NCBI RefSeq assembly: GCF_000024905.1
Contig: NC_013522.1
Location: forward strand, 124,001 to 188,000
Reading direction: 5' to 3'
DNA from: Thermanaerovibrio acidaminovorans DSM 6589
GTDB lineage: Bacteria; Synergistota; Synergistia; Synergistales; Synergistaceae
Length of the DNA stretch: 64,000 nt
The translations under genes were made by a program, and so were the position numbers. Below, in pieces: positions 53,845 through 64,000 of the stretch (position 1 is the stretch's first letter; the number at the start of each line of letters is the position of its first letter). The notes below the pieces were generated by a model. The model searched no databases, was not told the origin of the DNA, and was given only the letters and a program-made list of their open reading frames with translations.

Positions 53845-56358
53845 TCAGTTCCCCAAGGAGGATACGAAGGCCTCCACCACCTGGGGGTCGAAGATGATTC
53901 CCTTGAGGGAGGCTATCTCCTCCAGCGCCTCCCGATGGCTCAGGGGCCTCCGGTAGGGTCTGCCGCTGGTCATGGCCTCGTAGGCGTCCGCCAGGGCGAA
54001 GATCCGGCACTGGATGGGGATCTGATCCCCCTTGAGTCCCCGGGGGTATCCGGAGCCGTCGTATCGCTCGTGGTGCAACAGGATCAAGTCTGCTACGGAT
54101 ACTATCTCCTTCACGTTCTGGGCTATCATGTAGCCCACCTCGGGGTGTCGTCGGATGTCCTCCATCTGGTTCTCCGTCAGTGGGCCTTCGGCCCTCAGAA
54201 CCTCCGGAGGTATTCCTATCATCCCTATGTCATGGTAGTAGGTCAGCAGGGAGAGATCCTCCATCTCCCTGGGGCTCAGATTCATGGCGGATCCCACCGC
54301 AAGGCAGATTTTCTTGAGGCGGTTCCTGTGGTCTTCGTCCTCGTGGCATCGGGAGCTCAGGGCGGACAGTATCCGGTCCAGCAGCATCTGCCGCTGGTCC
54401 CTCCCGTCGATGAGCTTGTGTCGGTACATCATCTCCTCCGCCTCCTTCATGGCGGGGAGGATGCCCTGGCCTGGATTGGACCTGGTACCCCAACCTAGGG
54501 CGATGCTCATGGGTATGTCACCCAGGGGGGAATCCCGGACCATCTCCCGGATTCGCTGGGCGGCCATCTCTGCCCCCCGCTCGGTGGCTCCCACCAGGAG
54601 GATCAGGAACTCATCTCCCCCCCATCGGCCAACCACATCCCCCCGTCGGCATGCGGCCTTGAGGACCTTGGCGGCGTTGATAAGGAGGGCGTCTCCCCTC
54701 TCGTGGCCGAAGGCGTCGTTGGTCATCTTGAGGGCGTTAACGTCCGCCATGATGACCGATACGGGCATCACCTGCTCCTCCTCCAGCCGAGAGATCTCCT
54801 CCTCCAGGAACCGGCGGTTCGGCAGTTTGGTGAGCGGGTCGTGATAGCTCATATACAGCATCTTATCCCGCCACTGCTTCTCCTGTCCCACGTCTCGGAG
54901 GACAGCCACCGCCCCGGTGACCTCTCCCAGGGAATTCCTTACGGGAGAAGCGCTGCCGGAGATGTGGATCTTACCCCCTGGGGTGTTGGCCACCGCATCG
55001 GATATGGGGATTATCCTTCCGGAACGGATGGCGGCTCCCAGGGGATCCCCCTCGTTCAGGGTCTTGGACTCAATTATGGAGAAGACATGGGAGAAGGGCC
55101 TGCCAAGGGCGTCCTGCTCTTTGATCCCCGCCATCTTGAGGGCCGATGGGTTGATGGACGTGATGGTGCCGCCCGCATCTGTGGCCACCACCCCGTCAGC
55201 GATGCTCATAAGGGTGGTGTTGAGGGTCTCCTTCTCCTGGTGGAGTCTCCTCTTCGCCTCCTCCCGCTCGGTTACGTCAAAGATGATCGAGAAGAGGGCG
55301 GTGCTTTCGCCGATGTTTACCGGAGCGGTGAAAACGTCCACCAGCCTCACCGCGCCGCTCCGGAGCCGGTGGGGGAACAGGAAGTAGCGTTGCTTCCCAT
55401 GGGCGGCCAGGAGGCTACGCCTTCTCACCTCCTCCTCGGGGAGCTGGTTGATGTCCTGAATGGTCATCCGGGTGATCTCCTCGTGCCGGTAGCCGTAGAA
55501 GTTCAGCGCCGATGGGTTCGCGTCCAGGATCTGCCCCGACTCGGGATCAATGAGGAGCATCACCGCCGGGTGCTCCCGGAACATGGCCTCGTAGCGCCTG
55601 AGCGCCGCGTCCCTCTCTTCCTGGGCCCTTCTCTCGTCGGTCACGTCCTTTATGAACCCCACTATGTGGGACGGGGCATGGTCAAGGAAGGAGGGCACCA
55701 GGGAGGTTTGCAGCAACCGCACCTGGTCGTTGGGGAGGAGGAAACGCTCGGCCACCGTTATGGGGGAGCGGGAATTGATGCAGTCCCGGTAGTTGGCCTC
55801 CACCATGGCCCCCATGCGATCGCCGAGCAGCTCCCGGGCGGTGAGCCCCCGGACGTCCCGAGAGCCTATCATGAACATGTCCCGGTAGAGGCGGTTCACC
55901 AGCACATAGCGGAATGACCCGTCCGGGTGGGCCCTCACCAGGAAGGCCCCCTCCTGGATCCCCTCGAACACGTCCTCGAACTCCAGGGAGATCTTCGAAA
56001 CCCTCTCCCCCTCCACCTCCAGCAGGTCTATCCGCCTCATCTCCTGGGACACGTCCTGGAAGATGAGGAGGCTGACCCCCTCCGCCGGGGCGGTGCGCTG
56101 GATGTTGAACGTCCTGTCCTTCGCCTTGAGGTAGCCACGCTCACCCGCCGGTAGCCCGGCCAGGTCCGAAAGGTCGCAACCCCCCAAATGGGGCAGGTCC
56201 GACAGGATGGCCCCCTCCAGGTCCTCCCGGTCGAGAAGCCCGGCGAACGCGGGGTTGTGGTAGATGACCCTTGGAGGGGGGCCATCCTCCAGCAGGAGCA
56301 GGGGGTAGGGCCATGACTCGAACGCCCGGGGAAGGATTTCCCGGTACCTGGTGTCCAT
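53845..56358 (-). CDS. multi-PAS protein with GGDEF and HD-GYP domains
   Basis: An 837-residue soluble c-di-GMP enzyme. Three to four PAS domains (about 10-110, 130-250, 265-370 and 385-500) are followed by GGDEF (GRWGGDEFLILL near 577, with RRGD I-site) and HD-GYP (HDIGMIGIP near 707 and HHERYDGSGYPRGLKG near 765). Both catalytic signatures are nearly complete, so it could both make and break c-di-GMP; the HD-GYP Lys in HDIGK is replaced by Met. PAS domains suggest a redox or small-molecule cue. ATG 56358 follows AAGGGGGG. A TATAAT on the minus strand (56410-56415) may be its -10 box. Confidence 0.9.
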   Translation of the reverse strand: MDTRYREILPRAFESWPYPLLLLEDGPPPRVIYHNPAFAGLLDREDLEGAILSDLPHLGGCDLSDLAGLPAGERGYLKAKDRTFNIQRTAPAEGVSLLIFQDVSQEMRRIDLLEVEGERVSKISLEFEDVFEGIQEGAFLVRAHPDGSFRYVLVNRLYRDMFMIGSRDVRGLTARELLGDRMGAMVEANYRDCINSRSPITVAERFLLPNDQVRLLQTSLVPSFLDHAPSHIVGFIKDVTDERRAQEERDAALRRYEAMFREHPAVMLLIDPESGQILDANPSALNFYGYRHEEITRMTIQDINQLPEEEVRRRSLLAAHGKQRYFLFPHRLRSGAVRLVDVFTAPVNIGESTALFSIIFDVTEREEAKRRLHQEKETLNTTLMSIADGVVATDAGGTITSINPSALKMAGIKEQDALGRPFSHVFSIIESKTLNEGDPLGAAIRSGRIIPISDAVANTPGGKIHISGSASPVRNSLGEVTGAVAVLRDVGQEKQWRDKMLYMSYHDPLTKLPNRRFLEEEISRLEEEQVMPVSVIMADVNALKMTNDAFGHERGDALLINAAKVLKAACRRGDVVGRWGGDEFLILLVGATERGAEMAAQRIREMVRDSPLGDIPMSIALGWGTRSNPGQGILPAMKEAEEMMYRHKLIDGRDQRQMLLDRILSALSSRCHEDEDHRNRLKKICLAVGSAMNLSPREMEDLSLLTYYHDIGMIGIPPEVLRAEGPLTENQMEDIRRHPEVGYMIAQNVKEIVSVADLILLHHERYDGSGYPRGLKGDQIPIQCRIFALADAYEAMTSGRPYRRPLSHREALEEIASLKGIIFDPQVVEAFVSSLGN

Positions 56359-57912: not shown

Positions 57913-57968
57913 TTGTCTTTGCGGCCTAGTCAATATAACGTAAATAGTTAAAATATTCGCCTTATAAT
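57913..57968 (+). promoter_or_regulatory. AT-rich promoter region of the export operon
   Basis: Two -10 candidates are visible: TATAAC (57934-57939), 15 nt after TTGTCT (57913-57918), and TATAAT (57963-57968), with no good -35 box. The latter would give a short leader of about 18 nt to GTG 57993. Confidence 0.4.
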
Positions 57969-57992: not shown

Positions 57993-60143
57993 GTGACTTC
58001 CCGTCCGGTTCGGTCGTTCCTCCTGGCCCTGTCCCTGGCTATCCTGTGCCAGCTATCCCCCCAGCCCTCCATGGGGGCCACCCTGCCGGAGCTGGAGGAG
58101 ATGGTGTCCTCCTCGCCGGAGGTGCTCCGGGCGGTGTACGACCTCCTGGCGTTGCAGGCTCGGGAGGAGGCGCTTGTGGCCTCCTCGGGGCTCAAGTTCT
58201 TCGCCGAGGCCTCCGTGACCGGATCCAACCGGCCGGAGTCCAGGTCCGACGACGCCAGGCTGGAGGGCTACTCCACCCTGTCCGGCCGGGTGGGGCTGGC
58301 GTTGCCGGTGTTGGGGTCCTGGCATCGAGAGCGGGTCTCCCAGATCCGGGCCCGGATCGACTCCCTCAAGGGGGCCCAACGGGAGATGGAGGCCCGGCGG
58401 GCCAACCTGACCGCCCTTCGGAAGGCCTACGTGCTTCTCTGGACCTCCCAGCGACGGGAGCTCCTCTCCCGCTGGTTCCTCCGGCTGGAGGGGCAGGCCA
58501 TGCCCCCCATGCGCCGCAGGACCGAGGAGGGCTACCTCCTCAAGGCGGACCTGCTGGAGATGGAGAGCTGGTTCCACCTGGCCCGGCGCCAGCTTGAGGG
58601 GGCCCTGGCGGACCAGGAGATGGCCATGGGGATCATCCGCAAGGCCACCGGCCGGCCGTACCAGGAGATCCTTAAGGCCGAGACCCCCTCCCTGCGGCCG
58701 GTCCGCTACTCCAAGGGGGCCCTGGGCAGGTACGTCAACCAGGATGACCCGGAGCTCGGGATCCTTCAGCAGGTGACGGAGCAGATGGAGCTGGCGGCCC
58801 ATCACCAGGGCCGGGGAGGGTACGAAGCGGAGGTGAGGGCCGGGGTCTCCTACAGCCTGGAGGACCCGGGCAGGGGCGGCCACGACGCTTTCGTCTCCTT
58901 CGGCCTGACAGCCCCGGTGGGGCTCTCCAAGGCCTCCCGGCTCTCCAGGGAGGCGGCCCTCTTCGAGGCCCAGGCGGCGGCGGAGGAGGAGGCGATCCAC
59001 CGGATGGACCGGCTCTCATCCATTCTGCACGGGGTCTCCCGCTGCCGCCACGCCCTAAGTCAGCTGGAGTTCTCCTCCGCCAGGCTCGAGTCCGCCCTGG
59101 AGGCCCTCCGGGTGGCCGACCTGAGGGCCTCCTCCATTCCGGGAGACGTGCTGGAGCGGCGCCTTAGGGCCCAGATGGACCTCTTCTCCGCCGCCATGGA
59201 CGTGGTGGAGGCGGAGGGACTGGCCATGCAGTACCACGCGGAGCTGCTGGAGCTGATCCCCCAAGACGGCCCCCAGGAGGACCCCGTGGTGATCTCCTCC
59301 CCCCCTCCGGGCACATCCCAGCGGTGGGCCCTGGTGATGACCGCCCTGGGGGGCACCCCATCGCCCAGGGGGCAATCCACCGGTGCCCTACAGCTTGGGG
59401 CCTACCTCTGGAACGGGGACCGGGTGCTCAATGGGGAGGGGGACCGGTTGCTGGAGCTGATCGGACGGTCCCCCTTCCGGCGGATCCTTATCTCCTTCAC
59501 CTCCCGGGGGATCCGGTCCATCCTGGACGGGGGCCCGGCCTCCCGGCGCCTCCACGATTTCTTGAGGTCCGCCAGATCATCGGGGGTGTGGGTGGAGCTC
59601 CTGCTGGGGGACCCGGACTTCATCCTGGATCCTAAGGGCATGGTGGACCTGATATCCCGCCTCAAGGGCCTGCCCTTCGACGGGCTCCACCTGGACCTGG
59701 AGGTGGACCAGATTCCCGGCGCCTCCCAAAGGCGGCAGGAGCTGAACCGGCGCTTCCTCCAGGCGGTGGAAGCGGCGGCCAAGGCCTCCCCCTGGGGGGT
59801 CTCGGTGTCCATCCACCCCCGCTACCTGGAGGAGCCCTTCCGGCAGGAGACCCTCGAGGGGCTCCATCGCTCCCGGGTCCGGGGCGTGGCGGTGATGATC
59901 TACACCTCCTCGACGGACAGGGCGGTGGAGCGGTTCCTGTCCGTCGCCCGGGGCGTGGGGGACATCAGGATGTGGCTTGCGGTGTCGGTGGAGGGGAACG
60001 TCTCACCGGAGGAGAGCCTTCGAGGGCTTGGGCCAGCGGGTTTCTCGGACGCCCTGGACCGGATGGGCAGGGCGGGAGTTAGGTCCGTGCTGGTCCAGTC
60101 CTTCGAGGACCACCTGTCCATGACTGGAGGTGGAGGCAGATGA
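57993..60143 (+). CDS. TolC-like outer-membrane factor fused to a C-terminal TIM-barrel domain
   Basis: A 716-residue exported protein. The signal peptide spans residues about 7-29 (LLALSLAILC core). Residues about 30-428 have the helical heptad pattern and duplicated layout of TolC-type outer-membrane factors (LPELEEMVSSSPEVLRAVYD, then REALVASSGLKFFAEASVTG; a second copy of the pattern at about 255-425). After a Pro-rich linker (about 430-442), residues 443-716 resemble a glycoside-hydrolase-like TIM barrel: RRILISFTSRGIRS, FDGLHLDLEVDQ (about 560-571), WGVSVSIHPRYLEE, WLAVSVEGN. The Asp/Glu of HLDLE is a candidate active site. GTG 57993 follows GGAGGGG. It overlaps the adaptor gene by 4 nt. 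Confidence 0.75.
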   Translation: MTSRPVRSFLLALSLAILCQLSPQPSMGATLPELEEMVSSSPEVLRAVYDLLALQAREEALVASSGLKFFAEASVTGSNRPESRSDDARLEGYSTLSGRVGLALPVLGSWHRERVSQIRARIDSLKGAQREMEARRANLTALRKAYVLLWTSQRRELLSRWFLRLEGQAMPPMRRRTEEGYLLKADLLEMESWFHLARRQLEGALADQEMAMGIIRKATGRPYQEILKAETPSLRPVRYSKGALGRYVNQDDPELGILQQVTEQMELAAHHQGRGGYEAEVRAGVSYSLEDPGRGGHDAFVSFGLTAPVGLSKASRLSREAALFEAQAAAEEEAIHRMDRLSSILHGVSRCRHALSQLEFSSARLESALEALRVADLRASSIPGDVLERRLRAQMDLFSAAMDVVEAEGLAMQYHAELLELIPQDGPQEDPVVISSPPPGTSQRWALVMTALGGTPSPRGQSTGALQLGAYLWNGDRVLNGEGDRLLELIGRSPFRRILISFTSRGIRSILDGGPASRRLHDFLRSARSSGVWVELLLGDPDFILDPKGMVDLISRLKGLPFDGLHLDLEVDQIPGASQRRQELNRRFLQAVEAAAKASPWGVSVSIHPRYLEEPFRQETLEGLHRSRVRGVAVMIYTSSTDRAVERFLSVARGVGDIRMWLAVSVEGNVSPEESLRGLGPAGFSDALDRMGRAGVRSVLVQSFEDHLSMTGGGGR

Positions 60144-61240
60144 GGATCCGTTTCAGCCGTAAGGAGTCCCCCAACGTGGACCCCGGGGGGTTAAAGGTGG
60201 ACTACGGCCCCGCCAGGAGGGCAGCCCTGAAGTGGCGGTGGTACCTGTTGCTGTTGCTCCTGTTCTCCCCCCTGGCCTTCTTGCTGTGGAAGGTGGCCAG
60301 CTACGCGATCCTGGTCTCCGCCCCCGGGGTGGTCAGGCTGGAGACGGTCACCGTGTCCTCCCCCATCCAGGGGGTGGTGTCCCTGCCCCTCAGGCCCGGG
60401 CAGCTGGTGAGGCGCGGGGACCAACTCTTCTCCGTCCGGGACCCGTCGGTGGAGGCCCGCCTTGCGGTGCTCAACGCGGAGCTGGGGGCCCTCAAGTCCT
60501 CCCCCTACCGCCCACCATCACTTAATCGGGTGGACCTCTCCCCCCTGGCGTCCCAGGTTCAGGTTCAGCGCAGGTCCGTGGCATATCAGCGGGAGGTCCG
60601 GGACCGGATCCGGGACCTGTTCTCCCGCGGCGCCGCCACCCGGGCGGAGCTTGACCAGGCAGAGGACCGGCTCCGGCAGGCGGAGGCGGCCCTGGCCCAG
60701 GCGGAGGCGGCCCTTTCGACCCTCAAGCCCTCCGCCCAGCCGGCATCCCAGTTCAGCGAGTACGAGGCCATGCGGCTCAACCGGATGGCCCAGATCCAGG
60801 CGGAGGCGGAGCAGCTAGGCTCCGTGCGCCACAAGGTGGTAACCAGCCCGGTGGACGGGGTGGTGCTGGAGCTACTGGTTAACGATCGAGGGTCGGTCCC
60901 CATGGGGGGAGGGGTGGTCACCCTGGGGGACCGCTCCAGGGTCCGGATATGGGGCTACCTGGACCCCAGGTTCATGCCCTACGGGGAGGTGGGCTCCCCG
61001 GTCCGGGTCCGCACGCCCGACGGGATGACGGTGCAGGGACGGGTGGAGGCGACCCCGACCCTGAGCACCCAGATCCCGCCGGACCTGTCGGGGCCGTTGA
61101 ACGAGCGGGGCAGGGCGGTCCTCATCAGCGTCACCTGCCCGGAGCTACCCGCCGCCTACCACGTGGACGGCATAAAGGTGGACCTGCGCTTCCCCTTCTC
61201 CTGGAGGAACGCCATGAGGTCCCTGGGGATCCGGATCTAG
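60140..61240 (+). CDS. HlyD-like membrane-fusion (periplasmic adaptor) protein
   Basis: A 366-residue protein with a cytoplasmic basic N-terminus, one membrane helix (about 35-58, YLLLLLLFSPLAFLLWKVA), a split lipoyl/biotinyl-like domain (PIQGVVSLPLRPGQLVRRGD and TSPVDGVVLELLVNDRG), a coiled-coil hairpin rich in Ala/Gln/Arg (about 165-200, EDRLRQAEAALAQAEAAL) and a C-terminal beta barrel. Such adaptors join inner-membrane pumps to TolC; Alg44-type relatives serve alginate export. ATG 60140 overlaps the upstream stop. No ABC or RND pump is next to it, so the glycosyltransferase is the likely partner. Confidence 0.85.
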   Translation: MRIRFSRKESPNVDPGGLKVDYGPARRAALKWRWYLLLLLLFSPLAFLLWKVASYAILVSAPGVVRLETVTVSSPIQGVVSLPLRPGQLVRRGDQLFSVRDPSVEARLAVLNAELGALKSSPYRPPSLNRVDLSPLASQVQVQRRSVAYQREVRDRIRDLFSRGAATRAELDQAEDRLRQAEAALAQAEAALSTLKPSAQPASQFSEYEAMRLNRMAQIQAEAEQLGSVRHKVVTSPVDGVVLELLVNDRGSVPMGGGVVTLGDRSRVRIWGYLDPRFMPYGEVGSPVRVRTPDGMTVQGRVEATPTLSTQIPPDLSGPLNERGRAVLISVTCPELPAAYHVDGIKVDLRFPFSWRNAMRSLGIRI

Positions 61241-61253
61241 GGGGGTGAGTCGG

Positions 61254-62600
61254 TTGATCGGAGAGGCGCATGGGGGTCATGGGATCCTCCGGGTGGGCTC
61301 GGTTCTGGCCCTGAGGGAGGCGCTGGAGGGGGCCACCAGGGGGATCCTGGTGCCCCGGGGGGCCGAGACGCTCGAGGTGCTGATGGAGCTCCGGTCCCAC
61401 CGGGATCGGGGGCTCATCCCCGCCTTCGTGGAGGGGGAGACGGACCGGTTCCTGGCGGAGCTGTGCGACGGGGTGGACCTGACCGAGGCCCAGATGTCCT
61501 CCCGGGCGGAGGAGATATGGGACCGGCTACAGGGGATCCAATGGGATCTCCTGGGCTCCAGCCTGGATTACCGGCTAATCGCCTTCCTGTACTCTAGACC
61601 CCACAGGGGCCTTTCGCCGGTGCTCAGGCCCTTGACCGGCCGGGTCTACCTCTGGCCCCTGATGGAGGCCTTAGGGGGAGGCAAGGTGGATCCCCAGGGC
61701 TGGATAGCCCGGCTGGCGGACGGGGGATACCTGGAGGAGGGGGAGCTGGTGGAGCGGGTCCGCTTCTGCCCCTTCTGCGACGGGGGGCACCTGAACTACG
61801 TGGACCTGTGCCCCTCCTGCGGGAGCATGGACATAGAGAACGTCCAGTTCATCCACTGCTTCACCTGCGGCCGGGTGGGCCCCAAGGAGGACTTCCTGGT
61901 CACCGGGGAGATGATATGCCCCTTCTGCGCCGCCAGGCTGAGGCACATAGGGTCCGACTACGACATCCCCATGGAGAACCAGCGATGCCGGGACTGCGGG
62001 GCCGCCTTCTCGGAGCCCAGGGTCTCCTGCCACTGCCTCCTATGCGGCCAGTGGAGCGACCCGGCGGACCTGATCCCCCGGAACTTCCGGGTCTGGAGGC
62101 TCACCGATAAGGGGGTCCTGGCGGCCCAGACGGGGGAGATGCAGAGCCGGTACGAGGTGATGGACACCCTAAACTACATGAAGCCCGAGCCCTTCCGGCA
62201 CATCCTGCAGTGGATGCTGAACCTCTCCAGGAGGCCACCGGTGGAGCCCTTCTGCCTGCTTTCCATATCCTTCGGGGACCTGGACGCCTTCGTGGCCCGG
62301 GTTGGGCTCCGGCGGGCCATGGAGACCCTTCGCTCCATCATGGGAAGGATAAAGGAGATGATCCGAACCACCGACGTGAGCACCCGGTCCGAGCATGAGG
62401 AGATCCTGCTTCTGTTGCCCAAGACCCCCCTGGAGGGGGGGCTGGTGGTGGCCCGCCGCATAGGACAGATTCGGTCTGCCCTGCCCCAGGAGGTGGCCTC
62501 CACCTTGCCCCTGGAGGTGAAGATCGCCTCGGTGCCCGAGGACCTGGAGGACTCGGCGGACGTGGACCTGTTCCTTGCGAAGCTGCGAGAGGTGAGGTGA
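61254..62600 (+). CDS. zinc-ribbon (TackOD1-like) protein with degenerate GGDEF-like domain
   Basis: A protein of about 448 residues. Residues about 165-290 contain five Cys pairs (CPFC, CPSC, CFTC, CPFC, CRDC, then CHCLLC), most easily read as several zinc ribbons. I think this is the TackOD1 domain family, recalled not searched. Residues about 315-448 look like a GGDEF/cyclase fold (PFCLLSISFGDLDAFVARVG...RRAMETLRSIMGRIKEMIRTTD), but the GGDEF signature is replaced by SEHEEILLLLP, so it should not synthesise c-di-GMP and may bind a nucleotide. TTG 61254 follows GGGGGGTG at 6 nt. It lies between adaptor and glycosyltransferase, so a regulatory role in polymer synthesis is likely. Confidence 0.75.
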   Translation: MIGEAHGGHGILRVGSVLALREALEGATRGILVPRGAETLEVLMELRSHRDRGLIPAFVEGETDRFLAELCDGVDLTEAQMSSRAEEIWDRLQGIQWDLLGSSLDYRLIAFLYSRPHRGLSPVLRPLTGRVYLWPLMEALGGGKVDPQGWIARLADGGYLEEGELVERVRFCPFCDGGHLNYVDLCPSCGSMDIENVQFIHCFTCGRVGPKEDFLVTGEMICPFCAARLRHIGSDYDIPMENQRCRDCGAAFSEPRVSCHCLLCGQWSDPADLIPRNFRVWRLTDKGVLAAQTGEMQSRYEVMDTLNYMKPEPFRHILQWMLNLSRRPPVEPFCLLSISFGDLDAFVARVGLRRAMETLRSIMGRIKEMIRTTDVSTRSEHEEILLLLPKTPLEGGLVVARRIGQIRSALPQEVASTLPLEVKIASVPEDLEDSADVDLFLAKLREVR

Positions 62601-62601
62601 C

Positions 62602-63954
62602 TTGGGACCCTTCCTCGTTACCGATGTCCTGCGGATGGCGGCGGCGGCGATCCGGGGGCTACTGGAGGATCCCCTGTCGTCCCAGGTGTGGGTGGTGATC
62701 TTCAAGTTCGTCCCCATGGTGGTCTTCCTGGAGCTACCCTACTACGCCTTCGTCCTGGCTGGGGTGCTCAAGTACGCCATGGAGAGGGCCCTGCTGCCCT
62801 GGGAGGAGGTGCAGTACCACCCGAGCGTGTCCTGCATAATCACCTGCTACTCCGAGGGGGAGGACGTGAAGCTCACCATAAGGACCCTGGCGCACCAGAT
62901 CTACCCCGGCAGGATCCAGATAATACCGGTCATAGACGGGGCCCTGGTGAACTCCCACACCCACCGGGCGGCGCTGGAGATGATGGACCAGGTGATGAGG
63001 GCTCCCAACCGGGAGCTGCTGGTGTTGCCCAAGTGGCAGCGGGGGGGGCGGGTCTCGTCGCTCAACGCGGGGCTGTCGGTGGCCCGGGGGGAGGTGGTGA
63101 TGGCCCTGGACGGGGACACCTCCTTCGACAACGACATGGTCTCCAAGGCGGTGCGCCACTTCAGGGATCCGAACGTGGCGGCGGTGGCCGGGTGCCTCCG
63201 GGTGCGGAACTGGAGGTCCTCCCTGGCGGCAGCGCTGCAGGGGCTGGAGTACATGCTGGCCATAGGGGTCAGCAAGACGGGCCTTAGCCAGTTCAACGCG
63301 GTGAACAACATATCCGGCGCCTTCGGCATATTCCGGCGGGAGGTGCTGAACCTGATCATGGGCTGGGACGCGGGGAGCGCCGAGGATCTGGACATCACCA
63401 TGAGGATAAAGAACTACTTCGGCCGATACCGGTCGGTGAGGATCCTCTTCGACCCGGAGGTGATAGGGCACACCGACGCGCCCCCCACGTTCCGGGGCTT
63501 CTTCAAGCAGCGCCTCCGCTGGGACGGGGACCTGTTCTACATATACGTCCGCAAGCACCTGAAGTCCTTCTCGCCATCCATGATGGGCTGGAGGAACTTC
63601 ATCACCGTAACCCTGGGAGGGCTCTACTTCCAGATCGTGGTGCCCCTGATCCTGTTGGTCTACACCGCCTTCAGCTTCATCACCTTGCCGCTGGGGACGG
63701 TATTTAGGATCCTCTTGCTGGTATACTTGTTCTACCTGGGGGTCACCTTGGTGTTCTACCTGCTGGGGCTCGCCTTCGTGTCCGAGCGGCCCAGGGATGA
63801 CCTGATCTTGGGCGTCCTGCTGCCCCTCTTCCCGGTCTTCACCTTCGCGTCCCGCCTATGGTCCGCCGCGGCGGTCATCTGGGAGATGGTGGCCCGGGGG
63901 CACCTGGACTCCTCCATGGCTCCCTGGTGGGTCCTCAGGAAGGGAAGGTTCTGA
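62602..63954 (+). CDS. processive family-2 glycosyltransferase, polysaccharide synthase-like
   Basis: A 450-residue inner-membrane enzyme. One or two N-terminal helices (about 24-50) precede a GT2 domain with SCIITCYSEGEDV, the metal-binding ALDGDTSF, the catalytic-base AEDLDI segment and the QRLRW motif of processive synthases such as BcsA, HasA and PgaC. Four or five C-terminal helices (about 330-430) would form the polymer channel. There is no PilZ domain, so c-di-GMP control, if any, would work through the neighbouring GGDEF-like protein. TTG 62602 has GAGGTGAGGTG upstream and is 1 nt after the previous stop. The polymer sugar is unknown. Confidence 0.85.
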   Translation: MGPFLVTDVLRMAAAAIRGLLEDPLSSQVWVVIFKFVPMVVFLELPYYAFVLAGVLKYAMERALLPWEEVQYHPSVSCIITCYSEGEDVKLTIRTLAHQIYPGRIQIIPVIDGALVNSHTHRAALEMMDQVMRAPNRELLVLPKWQRGGRVSSLNAGLSVARGEVVMALDGDTSFDNDMVSKAVRHFRDPNVAAVAGCLRVRNWRSSLAAALQGLEYMLAIGVSKTGLSQFNAVNNISGAFGIFRREVLNLIMGWDAGSAEDLDITMRIKNYFGRYRSVRILFDPEVIGHTDAPPTFRGFFKQRLRWDGDLFYIYVRKHLKSFSPSMMGWRNFITVTLGGLYFQIVVPLILLVYTAFSFITLPLGTVFRILLLVYLFYLGVTLVFYLLGLAFVSERPRDDLILGVLLPLFPVFTFASRLWSAAAVIWEMVARGHLDSSMAPWWVLRKGRF

Positions 63955-63986
63955 TATGTCAATGTGGCGTCTTGGAGGTGATGGGC

Positions 63987-64000
63987 TTGCCGAAGGTTAG
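63987..64000 (+). CDS. start of a further gene, cut by the right edge
   Basis: GGAGGTG (63974-63980) is followed 6 nt later by TTG and Pro-Lys-Val codons, the same start pattern as the neighbours. An in-frame ATG lies at 63981. Only four codons are inside the window, so nothing can be said of the product beyond its likely membership of the export operon. Confidence 0.4.

Follow-up and report, generated by a model that had tools for sequence, protein, structure and literature searches.

Drugs, metals and proteins are known cargo of TolC-type outer-membrane channels. That such channels could also pass on a polysaccharide from a processive synthase is treated in a review (PMC12430437) as a model only, for cyanobacterial cellulose, and as an open question for clusters organised as operons. 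The same review describes an XcsA-XcsB-TolC route (Maeda 2018) in which a family 2 glycosyltransferase (GT2), a HlyD-like protein and TolC are proposed to export Thermosynechococcus cellulose; its genes lie scattered over the T. vulcanus genome, and it is called unvalidated. A survey of synthase-dependent systems (PMC7112194) lists a tetratricopeptide-repeat (TPR) domain coupled to an outer-membrane pore as a feature and mentions neither TolC nor HlyD. Here we analyse a four-gene operon of Thermanaerovibrio acidaminovorans DSM 6589 (Synergistota), located at positions 57993-63954 of the window, by which we mean the whole 64,000-nt stretch analysed (contig NC_013522.1, positions 124,001 to 188,000) from a genome of one contig of 1,848,474 bases; coordinates below are those of the window. 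The operon encodes a TolC/TIM outer-membrane factor (OMF), a HlyD-like adaptor (HLY), a TackOD1-GGDEF protein (TACK) and a synthase (GT2), and we consider it likely to be a cyclic di-GMP (c-di-GMP)-gated, synthase-dependent exopolysaccharide system that exports through TolC/HlyD. Its features, followed by one upstream and one downstream feature, are:

57993..60143, + strand: outer-membrane factor fused to a TIM barrel; 716 amino acids, GTG start, signal-peptide-like N-terminus, GGAGG ribosome site
58074..59264, + strand: TolC-fold domain of this protein, residues 28-424 (Pfam OEP, Foldseek, VIA-align)
59388..60128, + strand: TIM-barrel domain of this protein, residues 466-712, hydrolase-like (VIA-align, conserved residues); D568 and E570 at 59694-59702
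60140..61240, + strand: HlyD/EmrA-like periplasmic adaptor; 366 amino acids, one transmembrane helix at about residues 36-54 (Pfam, profile search)
61245..62600, + strand: TackOD1-GGDEF protein; 451 amino acids, no transmembrane segment; N-terminal alpha/beta domain, zinc ribbons, degenerate GGDEF domain
61551..62102, + strand: TackOD1 domain, residues 103-286 (Pfam PF18551, 1.1e-68); twelve near-invariant Cys and an invariant His
62244..62513, + strand: degenerate GGDEF domain; RxxD I-site R374-D377 at 62364-62375, secondary R405
62602..63954, + strand: predicted processive GT2 synthase; 450 amino acids; D112, DGD 170-172 (63109-63117), ED 261-262, QRLRW 303-307 (63508-63522)
57927..57954, + strand: weak sigma-70-like promoter match (9/12) ahead of the operon, at chance level (2 found, 1.1 expected) and a candidate only
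63984..64000, + strand: start of an HDOD gene that leaves the window, 29 nt after the GT2 gene and outside the conserved module

The four co-directional genes are joined by a 4-nt overlap (OMF/HLY), a 4-nt gap and a 1-nt gap. Each has a purine-rich ribosome site ahead of it, and the same sigma-70-like scan found no promoter match on the + strand within the operon. Pfam assigns the four proteins to OEP (3.9e-9), HlyD_3 (2.4e-10), TackOD1 (1.1e-68) plus GGDEF (6.4e-7) and several GT2 families (7e-19). An earlier sequence-only reading had described four genes with overlaps or gaps of at most 13 nt, encoding a TolC-like factor with an attached TIM barrel, a HlyD-like adaptor, a zinc-ribbon/degenerate GGDEF protein and a processive GT2, and had taken the coupling of this GT2 to a TolC/HlyD pair as a sign of polysaccharide export. 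The close spacing is confirmed, the domain content is borne out by Pfam, AlphaFold2 fold comparison and motifs, and the export reading is supported. The membership in the TackOD1 family, a conserved I-site and the wide spread of the module go beyond what that reading had seen.

An AlphaFold2 model of the outer-membrane factor, built from 24 orthologues (mean pLDDT 87.9), shows two domains. Residues 28-424 adopt the TolC fold, with VIA-align Z-scores of 25.1 to a Pseudomonas aeruginosa outer-membrane factor (5azs) and 23.0 to TolC (1ek9), and Foldseek also matches the protein to TolC (6e-15). The TolC topology puts the C-terminus in the periplasm. There, residues 466-712 form a TIM barrel whose VIA-align matches are near-tied between the GH18 chitinase 6k7z (Z 17.6), Cwp19 (17.1) and the C-terminal domain of PgaB (4p7o, 16.7). 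Eight residues do not vary in any of 97 sequences (D568, E570, H608, R610, M635, S665, E667 and Q702), among them the GH18-like DxE, which lies within F-x-G-x-H-x-D-x-E; we take this stretch to correspond to the strand-4 motif DxxDxDxE of GH18. The predicted fold suggests a GH18/PgaB-like, hydrolase-like barrel. A search of the PDB with a sequence profile of the domain gave only a weak match to a "putative GH97" (E 0.005), and we do not assign the barrel to a family.

The adaptor has a single N-terminal transmembrane segment (about residues 36-54) preceded by a short cytosolic stretch, and Y22, R27, W34 and P44 in this region are almost invariant over 99 sequences. Its hairpin tip reads L160...GAAT-x-x-E170, of which the L(x)6[TS] part is conserved; in known pumps this motif docks on TolC. 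In the synthase, the D, DxD, ED and QxxRW set (D112, D170, D172, E261, D262, Q303, R304, R306 and W307) is present in 97 of 97 sequences, and hydrophobic segments occur at the N- and C-terminal ends. These motifs and segments are consistent with an inner-membrane processive synthase. By its nearest NCBIfam models it is PgaC/NodC-like.

TackOD1 has been described as a zinc-ribbon output domain with "function obscure". The third protein clearly belongs to this family (PF18551, 231 bits against a gathering score of 32) and carries the domain behind an alpha/beta domain at the N-terminus and ahead of a GGDEF-like one. Each of twelve Cys is kept in 102-103 of 103 sequences and a His is invariant. 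The GGDEF signature itself is found in none of the 103 sequences. By contrast, R374 and D377, which align with the RxxD I-site of PleD, are each present in all 103, and position 405 is R in 95 and K in seven (102/103 R/K); R405 would correspond to the secondary Arg of the PleD site. PelD binds c-di-GMP via an RxxD motif in a degenerate GGDEF domain and requires a third Arg. From this pattern we infer that the TackOD1-GGDEF protein is a putative c-di-GMP receptor and an inactive cyclase. In one close relative (G077) the TackOD1 gene is found in two frames (L044:7473-8876), which could be an assembly error or a real frameshift.

The sequence-only reading had proposed a search for the same gene order in related genomes. 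With tblastn, each of the 25 other Synergistota genomes with a TackOD1 gene showed the order OMF-HLY-TACK-GT2; the flanks of these loci vary and the 4-nt OMF/HLY overlap is usually kept. TackOD1 scores over the cut-off in 26 of 121 Synergistota genomes, the GT2 occurs in the identical 26, and the TIM domain in the identical 26 plus one weak fragment. A wider genome collection yielded 205 relatives of the TackOD1-GGDEF regulator, of which 80 loci were kept, some of them being the same Synergistota loci. All five domains are present in 59 of the 80, and 45 of these have the order TACK-GT2-OMF-HLY. This mostly permuted module is also found in Pseudomonas, Stutzerimonas, Marinobacter, Nitrosomonas, Desulfobacterota and Acidobacteriota. 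Over 90 loci, the four proteins have correlated pairwise distances (0.93-0.96). Another 15 of the 80 loci have no TolC domain and encode the TIM barrel as a protein of its own, two hold just TACK-GT2-HLY, and a contig end truncates four more. The two short loci come from a Legionellales and a Gammaproteobacteria metagenome-assembled genome (L090 and L126); they hold no TIM domain or OMF, represent a minimal form and sit on long branches. A contig labelled as the archaeon Methanomethylovorans (L078) has a module very like the Synergistota ones and is probably misbinned.

The Pseudomonas loci with a separate TIM barrel (L087, L094, L104, L107, L110, L114, L117, L119, L122, L127 and L129-L132) are nested in Pseudomonas that carry the complete fusion, which makes loss of the channel domain in these lineages probable. 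The one separate TIM protein that was read, in L119, has a signal-peptide-like start. A TolC-less module in a metagenome-assembled genome of Synechococcus lacustris (L085:10013-14556) groups with those of Pseudomonadaceae and Marinobacter, by transfer or by misbinning. The Peb cluster of P. putida was considered as a name for the Pseudomonas version; no HlyD or outer-membrane efflux gene is described there in the papers found, and we do not claim identity.

Several points weigh against a hydrolase-bearing, c-di-GMP-gated export system. The TIM barrel stays below every Pfam cut-off, with GH18 matched by only 3 of 24 OMFs (best E 0.0039). Two active-site positions of GH18 differ (H566, and S/T after M-x-Y), and the stretch that lines up with DxxDxDxE reads xxxHxDxE. 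Active GGDEF domains often have the Asp of RxxD as well, which leaves the Arg residues as the discriminating ones. Correlated distances are also expected from shared ancestry alone. Finally, the 15 loci without a TolC domain imply that the channel can be lost or supplied from elsewhere; it may be replaceable.

Among described systems, XcsAB-TolC shares with the present operon a HlyD-like adaptor and a TolC-like channel proposed to work with a GT2. It differs in that XcsA has a PilZ domain and the genes are scattered in T. vulcanus, whereas here a single operon combines a PgaC/NodC-like GT2, a fused hydrolase-like domain and a TackOD1-GGDEF protein, and Pfam finds no PilZ domain in the four proteins. 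BgsA/BgsB of Sinorhizobium meliloti, which makes a mixed-linkage beta-glucan, likewise pairs a GT2 with a membrane fusion protein and is activated by c-di-GMP, yet BgsA is described as cellulose-synthase-like and the pair as described has no channel or hydrolase gene. In alginate synthesis, Alg8 is a GT2 that works with Alg44, which sits in the inner membrane and has a membrane-fusion domain in the periplasm; c-di-GMP is bound there by a PilZ domain fused to Alg44, and the outer-membrane pore is AlgE with AlgK. The Pel operon resembles the present one in having a degenerate GGDEF domain with an RxxD I-site, in PelD. However, PelD has four transmembrane helices and a GAF domain and no TackOD1, and Pel uses the GT4 enzyme PelF; the sole glycosyltransferase of the present module is a GT2, and PelF, PelE and PelG are absent from it. 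The BcsZC fusion of Zymomonas cellulose operons also attaches a periplasmic hydrolase to an outer-membrane pore, which is of the BcsC type rather than the TolC fold. Like synthase-dependent systems in general, the operon has a processive glycosyltransferase with the catalytic motifs; it has a TolC-fold channel instead of a TPR-coupled pore, and Pfam gave no TPR family at E <= 1 in the four proteins. For two further features of such systems, a regulatory subunit that binds c-di-GMP and a periplasmic enzyme that modifies the polysaccharide, the I-site protein and the TIM barrel are candidates. The sequence-only reading had known no described system with this layout. This was too broad in view of XcsAB-TolC, BgsAB and Alg44, but the dedicated operon with a TolC-TIM fusion and a TackOD1 pseudo-cyclase appears undescribed: we found no description of it in the open-access literature searched, and one could exist in journals that are not open access or use the name of a Pseudomonas locus.

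The nature of the product allows for other explanations. PgaC_IcaA is the nearest NCBIfam model for the GT2 (1.4e-39, and 5.8e-40 for the Pseudomonas GT2), and the barrel resembles the C-terminal domain of PgaB, so the operon could be a divergent Pga system for poly-N-acetylglucosamine with the GT2 as orthologue of PgaC and with TolC/HlyD in place of PgaA and PgaD. We regard this as unlikely: the GT2 scores 136 bits against an equivalog cut-off of 422 for PgaC, the barrel is matched equally well, within error, by GH18 chitinases, and the PgaA beta-barrel/TPR protein, the deacetylase domain and PgaD of Pga are all missing from the four proteins and from neighbours conserved across loci. If the product were instead cellulose or a mixed-linkage glucan, as for XcsAB-TolC or BgsAB, the system would follow the same GT2, HlyD-like and TolC logic, or at least that of a GT2 with a membrane fusion protein, and cellulose synthase (9e-7) is found beside hyaluronan synthase among the PDB matches of the GT2 profile. 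This seems rather improbable to us, since PilZ is missing, BcsA is outscored by PgaC/NodC and hyaluronan synthase, and the GH18/PgaB-like barrel points to an amino-sugar polymer. NodC is the second NCBIfam model (2e-22), and the channel might export a short oligosaccharide or glycolipid rather than a long polymer. We give this little credence, as the QxxRW motif and transmembrane layout suit processive synthases and a tripartite channel with a hydrolase domain would suit polymer export better.

Another possibility is that the TolC/HlyD pair works with an energised transporter encoded elsewhere, as part of an efflux pump or of type I secretion, the GT2 and TackOD1 genes being accidental neighbours. 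The 24-adaptor profile indeed matches EmrA best (4e-12), the other solved relatives ZneB and MacA are also pump adaptors, an RND-adjacent OMF is present elsewhere in the genome, and some Pseudomonas loci are flanked by a divergent MFS-LysR-like pair. We nevertheless find this explanation very unlikely. About 100 loci preserve the gene order, in one of two permutations, the module markers are all-or-none across the 121 Synergistota genomes, and the conserved cytosolic N-terminus of the adaptor is family-specific. No ABC, RND or MFS pump gene was found in the operon, downstream of it or conserved beside the module across loci; a partner encoded at a distance is possible. In the loci read, the Pseudomonas MFS gene sits past the divergent LysR-type gene, and the sole widespread neighbouring ABC cluster groups assorted ATPases, one of them ABC-F-like, whose genes vary in position and orientation. 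Directly downstream of the GT2 gene, where an ABC or RND pump that explained the TolC/HlyD pair would, by its own account, have spoken against the sequence-only reading, genes for HDOD, PAS-GGDEF-HD, YbaK-like and SpoIIE-type proteins follow instead. That reading had also let the operon continue past the window. The HDOD gene and then the PAS-GGDEF-HD gene do follow, but neither belongs to the conserved module, and HDOD was not found among neighbours conserved across loci.

PAS-GGDEF-HD proteins flank the operon on both sides (window 53845-56358 on the - strand, and L001:11226-13271), and this is kept in the genus. They have intact GGDEF plus HD domains and could possibly make and degrade c-di-GMP locally. 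A gene for a GalE-like NAD-dependent epimerase lies downstream of the adaptor gene in several Pseudomonas loci, starting in L119 (14353-15303) at the last base of the adaptor gene; this fits a role in sugar-nucleotide supply.

For the exopolysaccharide system that we favour, apparently one for a biofilm polysaccharide, we infer the biochemical steps, polymer and contacts from gene content, motifs, predicted folds, conservation and co-occurrence. The inner-membrane GT2 would polymerise a nucleotide sugar, probably a hexosamine (UDP-GlcNAc or UDP-GalNAc), and extrude the chain via its own membrane channel. The HlyD-like adaptor, with its one transmembrane segment, would take the place of a co-polymerase and dock on the TolC-fold channel, so that a tunnel crosses the periplasm and opens to the outside. 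At the periplasmic end of the channel, the TIM barrel may trim or bind the exported chain, as the hydrolase domains of PgaB and PelA do, and the TackOD1-GGDEF pseudo-cyclase would switch the synthase on by binding c-di-GMP at its I-site, in a manner similar to PelD. By analogy, the product is probably an amino-sugar polymer; the hexosamine is suggested because the GT2 is PgaC/NodC-like and the barrel GH18/PgaB-like, and it is the weakest part of the reading.

All parts are found in a single transcription-unit-like block, including a channel-fused hydrolase-like domain and a candidate c-di-GMP receptor. It is evenly balanced, in our view, whether the module stands for one more general class of machine for synthase-dependent exopolysaccharides, with a wide distribution among Gram-negative phyla. 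In such a machine the polymer would pass from a PgaC/NodC-like GT2 through a dedicated HlyD-type adaptor into a TolC-type channel equipped with a glycan hydrolase, and the c-di-GMP switch would be a zinc-ribbon pseudo-diguanylate-cyclase. Since the module occurs in tractable Pseudomonas and Stutzerimonas, the question of polysaccharide passage through TolC is directly testable, and TackOD1 gains a concrete bacterial setting.

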